From Cellulosimicrobium cellulans (GTDB taxonomy: Bacteria > Actinomycetota > Actinomycetes > Actinomycetales > Cellulomonadaceae), in assembly GCF_024124905.1 (NCBI RefSeq), contig NZ_JAMXST010000002.1:186001-250000 (forward strand): a stretch of DNA of 64,000 bases, written 5' to 3'. Shown here piece after piece: positions 30,304-34,539 of this stretch. A model generated the notes under the pieces. That model was not told where the DNA came from, made no database searches, and worked only from the letters and a program-made list of their open reading frames with translations. Positions within the stretch are counted from its first letter, which is position 1. The number at the start of each line of letters is the position of its first letter. The position numbers and the translations under genes are program-made.

Positions 30304-30350
30304 ACACCGGCGGCCTGCGCGCTGTTCCCGTCCAGAGCCCGTGCCACGCT

Positions 30351-30386
30351 CCGCCGACACCCCCGCCGACGCCCCCGCCGACGTCC
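30351..30386. repeat. 12-bp tandem repeat, three copies
   Basis: Imperfect CCGCCGACRCCC-type units at 30351-30362, 30363-30374 and 30375-30386, in the gap between mrx1 and uvrD2. Likely simple-sequence slippage. Confidence 0.6.
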
Positions 30387-30442
30387 TGGGCCGTGTCCGG
30401 CCGGCGCCCGCGTGTCGGCGACGCCTGCGAGAATCGCGGGTG

Positions 30443-32497
30443 ATGTCCACACCACCGGTCTCACGCCCGCCGTCCCTGCGCACCGCCGACGAGATCCTCG
30501 ACGCGCTCGACCCCGACCAGCGCGACGTCGCGGTCGCGCTGCGCGGCCCGGTCTGCGTGCTCGCGGGCGCGGGGACCGGCAAGACGCGCGCGATCACGCA
30601 CCGCATCGCCTACGGCGTCCGCACCGGTGTCTACACCCCGACGAGCGTGCTCGCCGTGACCTTCACGGCGCGCGCTGCGGGGGAGATGCGCACCCGACTG
30701 CGCGAGCTGGGTGCGACGGGAGTCCAGGCGCGGACGTTCCACGCGGCGGCGCTGCGCCAGCTCGGCTACTTCTGGCCCAAGGTCGTCGGGGGCGCGCCGC
30801 CGCGCATCCTGGAGCACAAGGCGCCGGTCATCGCCGAGTCGGCGCGTCGCCTCGGCGTGGGCGTCGACCGCGTCGCGGTGCGGGACCTGTCGTCCGAGGT
30901 CGAGTGGGCCAAGGTCTCGCTCGTCACCGCGGACGACTACGTCCGGGCGTGCGAGGCGATCGACCGCGAGCCCCCCGCCGGGTACGACCACCAGACGGTC
31001 GCGCGCCTCATCACGGCGTACGAGGACGTGAAGACCGAGCGGTCGGTCATCGACTTCGAGGACGTGCTCCTCATGCTGGGCGACATGCTCGCGACGCAGG
31101 GCGGCGTCGCGGACGAGGTGCGTCGTCAGTACCGGCACTTCGTCGTCGACGAGTACCAGGACGTCTCGCCGCTGCAGCAGTTCGTCCTCGACCAGTGGCT
31201 CGGGGGGCGCGAGGAGCTGTGCGTCGTCGGGGACCCGTCGCAGACGATCTACTCGTTCACGGGCGCGACGCCGCACCACCTCCTCACGTTCTCGCGCACC
31301 TACCCGGGCGCGCAGGTCATCCGGCTGGTGCGGGACTACCGCTCGACGCCGCAGGTCGTGAACCTCGCGAACCAGCTCCTCGCGCGCGCCGGGCGCGCGG
31401 GCGGCGCGCACCAGGCGCTCGAGCTCGTCGCCCAGCGGCCCGCCGGCCCGCCGGTCGCGTTCACCACGTACGACGACGACGAGGCGGAGGCTGCCGGCAT
31501 CGCCCAGCGGATCTCGCGGCTCCTCGCGGCCGGCACGCGCGCGAGCGAGATCGCGGTCCTCTACCGCACCAACGCGCAGTCGGAGGCCTTCGAGTCGGCG
31601 CTCGCCGAAGCGGGCATCGGCTACCTCGTCCGGGGCGGCGAGCGCTTCTTCCAGCGCAAGGAGGTGCGCGACGCGATCGTGCTCCTGCGCGGGGCGGCCC
31701 GGTCGGCCGACCCCGACGTCCCGATGCCCGAGACGGTGCGCGACGTCCTCGCCGCCGCCGGGTGGGCACCCGAGCCGCCCGCCGCGCGCGGGGCGGCGCG
31801 CGAGCGGTGGGAGTCCACGCAGGCGCTCGTCGCGCTCGCCGACGACGTCGCCGCGCTCGCGCAGGCGGCCGAGGGGCCCGCGCCGACGGTCGCGACCTTC
31901 GTGGCCGAGCTCGACGAGCGCGCCGCCGCGCAGCACGCTCCGACGGTGGAGGGCGTGACGCTCGCGTCGCTCCACGCGGCCAAGGGCCTCGAGTGGGACG
32001 CGGTGTTCCTCGCGGGCACGAGCGAGGGGCTCATGCCGATCTCCCTCGCCGAGACGGACGAGGCGATCGCGGAGGAACGGCGGCTGCTCTACGTGGGCAT
32101 CACCCGGGCCCGCGAGCACCTGGAGCTGTCCTTCGCCCGGTCGCGGAACCCCGGCGGTCGCGCGACGCGGCGCCGGACCCGGTTCCTCGACGGGCTGTGG
32201 CCGGACGAGCCGGGAGCCCACGGCACGCGCCGTCCGCGCTCCGGGCAGGCGAAGCTGCGGCTCACGGGGGAGTACGACCGCGAGCTGTTCGAGAGCCTGC
32301 GCGAGTGGCGGCGCCAGGTCGCGCAGGAGACGGACAAGCCGGCGTTCACCGTGCTGGTGGACAGCGCGCTCGCGGCGATCGCCGAGTCCCGGCCCACCAG
32401 CACGGCCGCCCTGGCCCGCATCAACGGGCTCGGGCCGGCGAAGATCGAGCGGTACGGCGCGACGATCCTGGACATCGTGGGCCGCGCGGAACGGTGA
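30443..32497 (+). CDS. uvrD2: ATP-dependent DNA helicase UvrD2 (SF1A, HRDC domain)
   Basis: 684 residues. Walker A AGAGTGKT at 41-48, Ia TFTARAA, II VVDEYQDVSPLQQ, III GDPSQTIYSFTGA, IV YRTNAQSE, V ASLHAAKGLEWD and VI VGITRAREHL are all present, so helicase activity is expected. An HRDC domain occupies about 600-680 (DKPAFTVLVDSALAAIAE...RINGLGPAKIERYG). The tetracysteine zinc motif that in mycobacterial UvrD2 links helicase and HRDC is absent; the corresponding segment has no cysteine. Start could be GTG 30440, one codon earlier; GAGAAT at 30429-30434 may be the -10. Divergent from mrx1. Confidence 0.93.
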   Translation: MSTPPVSRPPSLRTADEILDALDPDQRDVAVALRGPVCVLAGAGTGKTRAITHRIAYGVRTGVYTPTSVLAVTFTARAAGEMRTRLRELGATGVQARTFHAAALRQLGYFWPKVVGGAPPRILEHKAPVIAESARRLGVGVDRVAVRDLSSEVEWAKVSLVTADDYVRACEAIDREPPAGYDHQTVARLITAYEDVKTERSVIDFEDVLLMLGDMLATQGGVADEVRRQYRHFVVDEYQDVSPLQQFVLDQWLGGREELCVVGDPSQTIYSFTGATPHHLLTFSRTYPGAQVIRLVRDYRSTPQVVNLANQLLARAGRAGGAHQALELVAQRPAGPPVAFTTYDDDEAEAAGIAQRISRLLAAGTRASEIAVLYRTNAQSEAFESALAEAGIGYLVRGGERFFQRKEVRDAIVLLRGAARSADPDVPMPETVRDVLAAAGWAPEPPAARGAARERWESTQALVALADDVAALAQAAEGPAPTVATFVAELDERAAAQHAPTVEGVTLASLHAAKGLEWDAVFLAGTSEGLMPISLAETDEAIAEERRLLYVGITRAREHLELSFARSRNPGGRATRRRTRFLDGLWPDEPGAHGTRRPRSGQAKLRLTGEYDRELFESLREWRRQVAQETDKPAFTVLVDSALAAIAESRPTSTAALARINGLGPAKIERYGATILDIVGRAER

Positions 32498-32500
32498 CGC

Positions 32501-32519
32501 GGAGCCGTTCTCGGGCTCC
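32501..32519 (+). terminator. short hairpin after uvrD2
   Basis: GGAGCC (32501-32506) pairs with GGCTCC (32514-32519), 4 nt past the uvrD2 stop. Probably separates uvrD2 transcription from the whiB7 promoter. Confidence 0.5.
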
Positions 32520-32554
32520 CAGGAGGGTTCGAGAAACTCGTCGAAGAAATTCCC

Positions 32555-32593
32555 GTAAATAAGTTGTGCGTCCCGCGACGCGCGACATATGGT
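32555..32593 (+). promoter_or_regulatory. whiB7 promoter with AT-rich activator block
   Basis: -35 TTGTGC at 32564-32569, 18-nt spacer, -10 TATGGT at 32588-32593. A rare AT-rich block (GTAAATAAG, 32555-32563) abuts the -35. In other actinobacteria, WhiB7 bound to the main sigma factor uses its AT-hook on AT-rich DNA at exactly this place, so autoactivation is expected. Confidence 0.8.
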
Positions 32594-32651
32594 CGACGAG
32601 TCCTGTTGGAGAGGGGCGCGCCGGGAGGCGGGCCTCGAACGGAGAGAGGGG

Positions 32652-32819
32652 GTGGGAAAGCTGATGAAGAACCAGATCGCCATGGCGAACCTGCTGGATA
32701 ACGCGTCCGTCTACACGGGCACGCCAGGAGGACTCCGTCCGCGTGCAGCCGCGCACCGCGGCGGCACCTTCGTCGCCCGCCCCGCTCCCGACTCCGCCTC
32801 CAGGACACCTCTGGTCTGA
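32652..32819 (+). CDS. upstream ORF in the whiB7 leader
   Basis: Open from GTG 32652 (55 codons) or ATG 32664 (51 codons, starting MKNQIAMANLLDNAS) to TGA 32819. A GGAGAG purine tract at 32641-32646 suits the GTG; AGGGGG further on could serve the ATG. The peptide has no recognisable domain and ends in a Pro/Ser/Arg-rich stretch. Its stop codon falls in the loop of a hairpin (32811-32827), and the terminator-like stem comes about 85 nt later. This is the expected arrangement if ribosome stalling on the uORF controls read-through into whiB7. Translation is inferred, not shown. Confidence 0.6.
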   Translation: MGKLMKNQIAMANLLDNASVYTGTPGGLRPRAAAHRGGTFVARPAPDSASRTPLV

Positions 32820-32938
32820 CCGACCAGAACCTTCCAGGCCGCGGAGTCCGTCTCGGACCCGTGGCCTTCGTGTTCTCCAGAGCACGTCTGCCGATGAGGA
32901 TCACCGGTCTCTCCCGTCCTTCCTACGGACGGGGACCG
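32730..32938 (+). promoter_or_regulatory. whiB7 leader attenuator (alternative hairpins)
   Basis: Elements in order: GGACTCCG at 32730-32737; hairpin CTGGTC/GACCAG at 32811-32827; nested hairpin 32836-32867 (AGGCC/GGCCT outside GTCCG/CGGAC), whose left half overlaps CGGAGTCC (32842-32849), complementary to 32730-32737. A 12-bp stem with a 3-nt bulge follows at 32905-32938, about 60 nt before the whiB7 start. The long-range pairing and the nested hairpin are mutually exclusive, as in transcription attenuators. Actinobacterial terminators often lack a U-tract, and this one does. Confidence 0.6.
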
Positions 32939-33000
32939 CTGTCCTCAGGTCCTGTGACGACGACGTTCACACCCACGACAGGACATCACTGGAGGACATC

Positions 33001-33438
33001 GTGCGGCTCACCGCGCTGCTCGACAACATCACTGCCCAGGGCGGATCCGGCCCCTGGGTCCCCCACCAACCGCTGGCCACGCCCCTCGGCGAGCAGGACT
33101 CCGCGGAGTTCGACCGCCTCCTCGCGGGCCTGCTGCCCTGCCGCACCAACGACCCGGAGCTCTGGTTCGCCGAGCGGTCCGCCGAGGTCGAGGAGGCCAA
33201 GGCCCTGTGCCGCACGTGCCCCCTCGTCGAGGGCTGCCTCGCCGGCGCGATCGAGCGCCGCGAGCCCTGGGGCGTCTGGGGCGGCGAGGTCTTCGTGGAC
33301 GGCGTCGTCGTCGCGCGCAAGCGCGGCCGCGGCCGTCCGAGCAAGGCCGAGGTGCTCGCCCGTGAGGCCGAGCGCCAGGCGCAGGAGGCGTCGCGCGTCG
33401 AGGCCGGGGCGTCAGTCGGCGCCTCGACGGCGGCCTGA
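33001..33438 (+). CDS. whiB7: WhiB7 (WblC) redox-sensing transcription activator
   Basis: 145 residues. The four [4Fe-4S] cysteines are C47, C70, C73 and C79 (C...CxxCxxxxxC), followed by the sigma-contacting GVWGGE turn (91-96) and the AT-hook RGRGRPSK (108-115) that is diagnostic for WhiB7 among Wbl proteins. It binds the main sigma factor and activates intrinsic antibiotic-resistance genes when translation is inhibited. GTG 33001 has GGAGG 5 nt upstream. The gene lies beside uvrD2 as in mycobacteria and is preceded by a long attenuator leader. Its last 27 nt overlap the convergent ThiF-like gene. Confidence 0.92.
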   Translation: MRLTALLDNITAQGGSGPWVPHQPLATPLGEQDSAEFDRLLAGLLPCRTNDPELWFAERSAEVEEAKALCRTCPLVEGCLAGAIERREPWGVWGGEVFVDGVVVARKRGRGRPSKAEVLAREAERQAQEASRVEAGASVGASTAA

Positions 33439-34539
33439 CATGGTGAGCGACGCCCCGTCCGGGGGCGTGCGCGCCAGCTCGTCGCACCCGCAGCGCGGGT
33501 GGCGACCCGTCTCGCGCAGCCGCGGCACCGCATCGGGAGCAGGGATCTCGATGCGGGCCGTGGCTGCGCGGGGCACCAGCCCGTCCAGGGCTGCCAGGAC
33601 CTGACCGAGCGCGACCGCGGCCGCCGAGGCCGCGAGCGACGACTCCTCGGCCGCGCGCACGCGCCCGTCGCGCAGCTGCCGCGCCAGCTGCGGCCAGCAC
33701 GGGTCCGCGTCGGCGTGGTGCAGGTCCACGCACGTCAGGCACGGGTCGAGGCCCGGCCGGACGAACGGTCCGACGACGACGTCGGCCTCGCGCACCACGA
33801 CCGACAGGTGCGCCACCCCCTCTCCCACGAGCCGCCCGACCCGCTCCGGGTCCGCCGCGCCGTGCTCGACCACGACCACGACGTCCGGGACCCGGCCCCG
33901 TGCTCCCGTCACCCGGTCGTCCACCGGGGCGCCGGCGCCCGCGCCTGTGCCCGCGGTGACGACGGCCCCGGGCGCCACCTCCTCGACGAGCCGCCGCACC
34001 GCGGTCTCGCGGGGCGTCCCGACGTCGCGCAGCCGGTACGCGCCCACCCCGACGTCCGTGGCGAGGACCGTGCCGCGGTCCTCCAGGACGACCGTGCCCA
34101 CCCCGGCCGTCGCGAGGTGCACGGCGAGCGCGGCCCCGACCCGCCCCAGCCCGACGACGGCGACGGTCGCCCGGGCGCGGGACGCGAGGACGCGATGCCC
34201 CGCGCCGTCGGGCCGCAGCGCCGAGAGCACGCCCACGTCCGCCGCGCCGTTCCCCGGGGCGGGCGAGACGGGGCGTCGCCGACGGGCGGGGACGAGCAGG
34301 TGCGCCTCCTCGAGGAGCCGGACGAGCGCGGCGCGCCGGCCGGGCGCCGCGGGCGGGCCGGCCGCGCGCCCGTCGGGACGCCGGGCCGCCGGCGACGCGA
34401 GCGCGCGCAGCCACTCCTCCTCGCCGGGCTCGAGCCCGGCGAGCCGGACCGACCACCGTGGGTCGGTGCCGACCTGCACCTCGCCCGGGCCGCGCCGCAG
34501 CAGCGGGGCCTCGGGCCGTAGCACGCGTCGTCGCTGCAC
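33412..34539 (-). CDS. ThiF/E1-like adenylyltransferase-fold protein
   Basis: 375 residues. An N-terminal winged-helix-like region (about 1-90) precedes a Rossmann domain with GLGRVG at 130-135. The usual ATP/acid positions are altered: LEDRG instead of VDxD, and the GxxK helix has GTPRETA. Cysteines C267/C270 (DPCLTC), C281 and C350/C352 (RCGC) could bind zinc. This resembles actinobacterial ThiF-like or TOMM-docking/cyclodehydratase proteins of unknown role found near WhiB7. Thiamine, molybdopterin or RiPP partners are absent nearby. GTG 34539 has GGAGG 5 nt upstream. Convergent overlap of 27 bp with whiB7. Confidence 0.72.
   Translation of the reverse strand: MQRRRVLRPEAPLLRRGPGEVQVGTDPRWSVRLAGLEPGEEEWLRALASPAARRPDGRAAGPPAAPGRRAALVRLLEEAHLLVPARRRRPVSPAPGNGAADVGVLSALRPDGAGHRVLASRARATVAVVGLGRVGAALAVHLATAGVGTVVLEDRGTVLATDVGVGAYRLRDVGTPRETAVRRLVEEVAPGAVVTAGTGAGAGAPVDDRVTGARGRVPDVVVVVEHGAADPERVGRLVGEGVAHLSVVVREADVVVGPFVRPGLDPCLTCVDLHHADADPCWPQLARQLRDGRVRAAEESSLAASAAAVALGQVLAALDGLVPRAATARIEIPAPDAVPRLRETGRHPRCGCDELARTPPDGASLTMSGRRRGAD

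Follow-up and report, generated by a model that had tools for sequence, protein, structure and literature searches.

The whiB7 leader of Cellulosimicrobium as a probable uORF-controlled transcription attenuator

In actinobacteria, WhiB7 is a major hub of the intrinsic resistance to drugs that target the ribosome. In several reports, the whiB7/wblC genes of Mycobacterium and Streptomyces are described as controlled by uORF-dependent attenuation, with a terminator and an antiterminator (PMC4128351, PMC11550727, PMC13393426, PMC13236596). The general plan given in these and a related source (PMC7157823, PMC4128351, PMC11550727, PMC13393426) recurs in the leader analysed here: a WhiB7-dependent promoter followed by a long leader (the mycobacterial start lies about 350 nt upstream), a uORF with a Shine-Dalgarno (SD) sequence and then a stem with a U-rich stretch, and a choice between terminator and antiterminator that would be set by translation of the uORF. 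Since attenuation is known for whiB7/wblC, the Cellulosimicrobium leader represents a further case, with a corrected map; a literature search found no paper treating both whiB7 and Cellulosimicrobium. The differences concern the uORF peptide, which is mostly unrelated, the stop-codon hairpin, which is built into the antiterminator here, and the antiterminator strand, which is GACTCCGC here and, as judged by eye, seemingly TTCCG[CT]GGGCC in Streptomyces-like loci. The terminator of the Streptomyces loci (CAGGGCCGCGGAACCC...GGGATCCGCGGCCCTT) is clearly related.

Two other systems are close in part. The ilvB1 attenuator of M. tuberculosis, as described in PMC13236596, also combines a uORF with mutually exclusive terminator and antiterminator structures, but belongs to another gene and uses control codons to sense branched-chain amino acids. 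ErmDL-type leaders carry an Arg-Leu-Arg motif of the +X+ type, at which macrolides and ketolides cause arrest, and share an Arg-X-Arg motif with the uORF studied here. Stalling at the ErmDL motif is reported to make the mRNA refold in favour of the downstream gene (PMC8298421). The motif occupies codons 6-8 of ErmDL, versus codons 25-27 here, where ribosomes may stall, and the available text of PMC8298421 mentions no terminator.

The window, i.e., the whole 64-kb stretch of Cellulosimicrobium cellulans DNA that was analysed, contains the following features around whiB7.

32557-32562, forward strand: AT-rich WhiB7/WblC-type box AAATAA, adjoining the -35 element; exact match, conserved, WblC layout
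32564-32569, forward strand: -35 element TTGTGC, by match and conservation
32588-32593, forward strand: -10 element TATGGT (TANNNT type), 18-nt spacer from the -35
32664-32819, forward strand: predicted uORF of 51 codons, ATG...TGA, ending before the terminator, with in-frame deletions in relatives
32736-32744, forward strand: uORF codons 25-27, Arg-Pro-Arg, candidate macrolide/ketolide arrest motif of the +X+ type
32790-32797, forward strand: antiterminator 5' strand GACTCCGC, inside the uORF, starting 9 codons before its stop
32810-32828, forward strand: stop-codon hairpin of 7 bp whose loop opens with UGA (z -3.86), apical part of the antiterminator
32837-32866, forward strand: predicted intrinsic terminator hairpin GGCCGCGGAGTCC...GGACCCGTGGCC, by z-score, covariation and recurrence in class and family
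32841-32848, forward strand: antiterminator 3' strand GCGGAGTC, the same bases as the terminator 5' arm
32867-32878, forward strand: U-rich tail TTCGTGTTCTCC 3' of the terminator, 6 U in 12
32905-32938, forward strand: 12-bp stem with a 3-nt bulge (z -3.52), lacking a U tract, confined to the genus
32941-32997, forward strand: conserved block before whiB7, structure not supported
33001-33438, forward strand: whiB7, 145 aa, GTG start, SD GGAGG at 32991-32995

Judged by its sequence, the gene at 33001 is a true whiB7. The best solved relative of its product is WhiB7 of M. tuberculosis (7kif; E 2.9e-26), with which it has the GVWGGE and RGRP stretches in common, and the Pfam WhiB domain (PF02467) is detected at 57.4 bits; the genome contains four WhiB matches above the Pfam cut-off. 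The nearest named relatives are two Cellulosimicrobium loci (L049 and L050) with WhiB7 identities of 95 and 94%, in a comparison that may omit the window's own record. An N-terminally extended WhiB7, using the frame open from 32743, was considered and rejected: the frame is broken by single-base indels in relatives (32941-33000), and the GTG start and SD are conserved. Both are kept in nearly all family-level loci among those listed, with VRL following in most. The gene just upstream of whiB7 (30341-32494, forward strand) encodes a helicase of the UvrD type with an HRDC domain, and a convergent ThiF-type ORF (33412-34539, reverse strand) overlaps its 3' end.

For comparison we used 177 distinct upstream loci, identical ones having been removed. 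'Family-level' denotes the loci outside L069-L128, minus L064, a few named ones of which may fall outside the GTDB family. The terminator search pattern was written after the sequences had been viewed; with the pattern search no terminator was found in five loci (L068, L070, L071, L082 and L088) and no uORF in two.

We consider it very probable that whiB7 has a uORF-controlled transcription attenuator in its leader, in which the terminator at 32837-32866 competes with the GACTCCGC antiterminator. The analysis shows its sequence elements and their conservation, covariation of the alternative pairings, association with whiB7 throughout the class, and the logic of the folding. As in members of the whiB7/wblC class, we find an AT-rich WhiB7 box 5' of the -35 together with a TANNNT -10, an apparent uORF with an SD-like purine run and a stop just 5' of the terminator, a stem with a U-rich tail after the uORF (32837-32878) and an antiterminator competing with the terminator. 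A preliminary description of this DNA had proposed a WhiB7-type promoter with uORF-dependent transcription attenuation, and this general mechanism is well supported by the comparison.

The promoter elements proposed there (an AT-rich block against a -35 at 32564-32569, an 18-nt spacer and a -10 at 32588-32593) hold up as well. WblC promoters are described as having an A-rich box a few nucleotides upstream of the -35 and a TANNNT -10 (PMC7157823). Even with up to three mismatches allowed, the promoter pattern is unique in the window and is matched in none of 100 window shuffles; it is kept, with few substitutions or exceptions, in 25 upstream sequences from the genus and two neighbouring genera. 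By the start-site rule of the same source (PMC7157823), transcription is predicted to begin near 32600, 7-8 nt 3' of the -10, and the leader would be about 400 nt long because the start is placed there. A regulon search of the C. cellulans genome with the pattern AAATNNGTTGNN N16-19 TANNNT gave a single match, at whiB7, and no second site; the pattern is therefore too strict, or the regulon boxes are looser. Since the relaxed promoter pattern matches the whiB7 site only, autoactivation of this promoter by WhiB7 in Cellulosimicrobium is suggested by analogy with the known systems and not by a regulon.

The uORF was said to comprise 51-55 codons and to stop (32817-32819) in a hairpin loop, and this proved accurate: an in-frame GTG at 32652 would extend it to 55 codons, and the loop begins with the TGA at 32817-32819. 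In 115 family-level loci, which encode 107 distinct peptides, the uORF stop lies 8-26 nt 5' of the terminator, the search having covered at most 75 nt before it. Among the deletion cells of the genus-level alignment, all 13 that fall within the uORF have lengths divisible by three, compared with 16 of the 63 in the leader around it (shared events being counted repeatedly), suggesting that the uORF is probably translated in Cellulosimicrobium. The peptide itself is barely or weakly constrained, with an overall dN/dS of 0.97 within the genus (17 sequences); codons 21-27 give 0.42, with few changes.

The terminator hairpin folds with -26.2 kcal/mol (z -4.46 against shuffles). Across the loci its conserved form reads CAGGCCGCGGAGTCC...GGACCCGCGGCC, with U-rich tails after it, corresponding to 32835-32878 in the window. 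In 38 family-level loci (every third one) the mean z is -5.39 for the terminator, -4.16 for the antiterminator and -0.31 for the 5' ends of the uORFs. From the 114 distinct terminators we took 54 by similarity thinning and aligned them (alignment A1); 95.6% of the cells pair, 4 of the 13 pairs have changed on both sides, and none of 500 shuffles, which ignore relatedness, reached the covariation score. Transcription is predicted to end at about 32880, after the hairpin.

The tail is imperfect, and a strict terminator scan found no terminator. This fits the proposal that Rho-dependent termination coupled to uORF translation sets the read-through and that the hairpins only mark RNA processing, the more so as Rho and translated uORFs are described as shaping premature termination in M. 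tuberculosis. However, from general knowledge Rho would act with the opposite polarity, continued translation to the end being the condition that should terminate here, and the hairpin and its alternative pairing are strongly constrained; we regard such Rho control as the least probable of the readings considered, and hardly credible.

The alternative pairing involves GACTCCGC (32790-32797), which is complementary to the terminator 5' arm at 32841-32848. The region 32787-32850, with the stop-codon hairpin as its apex, folds with -32.5 kcal/mol (z -5.46). Complementary runs of 6 or more occur in 113 of the 115 family-level loci, and in 90 of them the run includes GACTCC, usually 9-10 codons before the stop; such a run needs only 6 pairs, with G-U allowed, within 60 nt, so that a match alone is weak. 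In an alignment of 62 of the 82 loci that were eligible by having G[AG]CTCC near the stop (alignment A3), 99.4% pairing is found; because these rows were chosen for the motif, this figure is not independent evidence, but the double co-change in L195 and L196 is: there, one C of the arm has become U and, correspondingly, G has become A in the antiterminator strand as well as in the 3' arm of the terminator. L168 and L169 show a change in the terminator partner alone, and the antiterminator covariation is slight, amounting to one pair in two sequences. In the stop-codon hairpin, 2 of 6 pairs have changed on both sides, in 13 of the A3 rows from Cellulosimicrobium and one neighbour (alignment A4, L020 left out). 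Covariation among relatives, proposed earlier as a check, thus concerns 4 of 13 terminator pairs, 2 of 6 pairs of the stop-codon hairpin and one arm position with both of its partners. By this comparison the three strands of the switch are mapped exactly, and one position is seen to co-vary in each of the two competing helices.

The preliminary description had assigned the uORF strand to another copy of the motif. It did not name the terminator at 32837-32866. It was right that GGACTCCG (32730-32737) can pair with CGGAGTCC (32842-32849) and that CGGAGTCC lies in a nested hairpin, but the conserved partner is the second copy, GACTCCGC, which is kept in 24 of 25 rows (GGCTCCGC in L021). As main partner we rejected the GGACTCCG copy: its region is deleted in all seven loci of genus g23 (L036-L042), and it is altered in several Cellulosimicrobium. 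In two loci of other families (L222 and L229) we noticed by eye GCGGACTCC with GGAGTCC, the arm and its likely uORF partner differing together, which looks like antiterminator re-pairing between clades.

Folding of the full and truncated leader, suggested as a further check, shows the two structures alternating in simulated nascent RNA. With the 3' end at 32848-32860 the antiterminator has P 0.96-0.98; the terminator wins once its 3' arm has emerged, and in the full leader at equilibrium it is always favoured (P 1.00), so the switch must be kinetic. When a ribosome is represented by masking about 15 nt on each side of the P site, the antiterminator has P of at least 0.98 with P-site codons 1-37, 0.46 at codon 38, 0.00 at codons 39-49, 0.22 at codon 50 and 0.94 at codon 51. 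Because the codon-51 mask again allows the antiterminator, timing matters.

In the mechanism that we propose, RNA polymerase would start near 32600 from the WhiB7-type promoter and a ribosome would load on the uORF. During unimpeded translation this ribosome would be on codons 39-49 as the terminator 5' arm (32841-32848) emerges; it would cover GACTCCGC (32790-32797), no antiterminator could form, the hairpin at 32837-32866 would fold, and transcription would end in the U-rich tail at about 32880. If the ribosome were slowed or stalled upstream, by a drug or by amino-acid shortage, or had never loaded, GACTCCGC would pair with the arm and form, together with the stop-codon hairpin, an antiterminator of about 59 nt; polymerase would pass, WhiB7 would be made and could then boost its own promoter.

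At gathering scores, Rfam detected one tRNA and no leader family in the whole window; in 32400-33500, two matches (E 1.2 and 2.6) were both far below the gathering scores. We built a covariance model of the terminator (R1), largely from sequences of the family itself. Although Rfam has no match for it here, R1 detects the terminator throughout the class: 189 of 296 class genomes, in 79 of 115 genera, are matched, mostly once per genome in the rows listed. Among the best 30 loci, which include two family members (the window locus being one), all 30 have WhiB7 just downstream on the same strand, and the only R1 match in the C. cellulans genome is at the whiB7 leader. In the order, 23 genomes were searched again for WhiB7: all six with an R1 match (of eight, the two weakest being omitted) have WhiB7 at E 1.1e-30 or better, against one of the 17 listed without R1, taking E < 1e-30. 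In the family, R1 matched 182 of 200 genomes and found nothing in 18. In eight of these 18 all WhiB matches are weak (E no better than 1e-7); in the other ten, which comprise all sampled g5, g15 and g17 genomes plus three g25 genomes, WhiB is matched at about E 1e-30 or better, and their leader may have diverged or been replaced. Lee et al. (2022) reportedly described conserved antiterminator and terminator structures of whiB7/wblC in several actinomycete clades, so that the terminator common to the class may have been published there already.

The 12-bp bulged stem at 32905-32938 had been taken as the attenuator, with a short terminated leader expected near 32940. The stem is real and stable (z -3.52), and some paired changes can be seen by eye within Cellulosimicrobium. 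However, it is followed by CTGTCCTC and not by a U tract, the two neighbouring genera in the alignment do not retain it, the corresponding segments across the family are of modest stability (104 segments, mean z -1.35, 32% below -2), and the uORF strand pairs with 32841-32848 and not with this stem. We therefore retain the stem as a structure confined to the genus and give very little credence to its being the attenuator; the predicted end of the short leader moves to about 32880, after 32837-32866. Some relatives have another G+C-rich hairpin at the position of this stem. It had also been thought that the uORF and stem sequences were specific to the lineage; this applies to most of the uORF peptide and to the 32905 stem but not to the switch stems, and the terminator recurs throughout the class.

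Between this stem and the gene, a block of 50-60 nt before the SD is near-invariant in Cellulosimicrobium and in g23 (probably Oerskovia), and Promicromonospora and Isoptericola types have a related version, GGTCCTG...GACGTTCA...CAGGA. In the window, GTCCTG (32949-32954) can pair with CAGGAC (32979-32984) and GTCCTC (32941-32946) with the SD region (32992-32997, GAGGAC). Translational control of the erm type, sole or additional, would have this block hide the SD except when rearranged by a ribosome or by RNA from upstream; the near-invariance of the block in the genus and its neighbours is in line with this, as are the minimum free energy fold, which pairs the whiB7 SD region, and the mean probability of the SD being unpaired, 0.27 in the 46 loci of the group versus 0.43 in 42 others. 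Yet the SD-hiding fold is not more stable than shuffles (z -0.69; mean z -0.10 across loci), none of its five pairs has changed on both sides in 45 of the 46 loci (alignment A2), the outer pairing with the SD is absent in neighbouring genera, and Cellulomonas-type members lack the block. A structured SD-sequestering hairpin is thus supported neither by stability nor by covariation, and control at this level seems improbable to us, though less so than termination at the 32905 stem or by Rho.

With transcription attenuation through the 32837-32866 terminator as the preferred reading, the uORF peptide may add a further element. Arg/Lys-X-Arg/Lys (+X+) is described as a macrolide arrest motif (PMC13410324, PMC8298421), and Arg-X-Arg is present in 93 of the 107 distinct family-level uORFs, against expected fractions of 0.29 in residue shuffles and 0.32 in fragments of window genes matched for length and Arg. 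Drawing one uORF per genus (17 of 25 genera represented, genus labels assigned by hand) gives 14.6 of 17 (minimum 12) versus 5.0 expected (maximum 11). DNA shuffled by dinucleotides tends to have more Arg codons and gives 0.72 (maximum 0.85); this is a real caution and weakens the enrichment. The other two frames give 0.89 and 0.97, which says little because they are Arg-rich. The motif is absent in 14 of the 107 uORFs, among which are the two from genus g10 and a cluster of the Cellulomonas type.

Outside the family, 22 distinct class uORFs from 28 loci have Arg-X-Arg at 0.73 versus 0.31 in shuffles. In the Streptomyces/Pseudonocardia set, +X+ (0.73 versus 0.60, maximum 0.76) is not clearly above shuffles and Arg-X-Arg (0.71 versus 0.35, maximum 0.57) clearly is. 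The middle residue of Arg-X-Arg is one of 12 different ones, and all four CGN codons are used. In 102 of 113 loci the complementary strand is preceded by a +X+ motif, at a median distance of 37.5 nt, the nearest one to the antiterminator strand having an interquartile range of 30-45 nt. It is conceivable, though on balance doubtful, that whiB7 uORFs carry built-in drug-arrest peptides, in which Arg-X-Arg would stall macrolide- or ketolide-bound ribosomes before the antiterminator strand and so turn whiB7 on. If this were the case, Arg-X-Arg would have been kept across genera while the remaining peptide turned over, and the whiB7 leader would join an ErmDL-like nascent-chain sensor to a class-wide transcription terminator. 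Context is reported to matter even at true +X+ sites (PMC8298421), and antibiotic stalling of ribosomes within the whiB7 uORF was stated to be untested in 2025 (PMC12121999); the recurrent motif names the codon at which to look for it.

The Cellulomonas-type and Streptomyces uORFs share a second stretch, xG(T/I/S)(G/A)(L/V)(S/P), encoded by DNA near CAGGGGACCGGTCTGTCC (L085, L112, L180 and others); similar DNA occurs in the Nocardia locus L088. Several third codon positions of this stretch are conserved, three of them in 24, 27 and 26 of 29. By eye, CCAGGAGGACTCCGTCC (32724-32740 in the window) may be a derived form of it.
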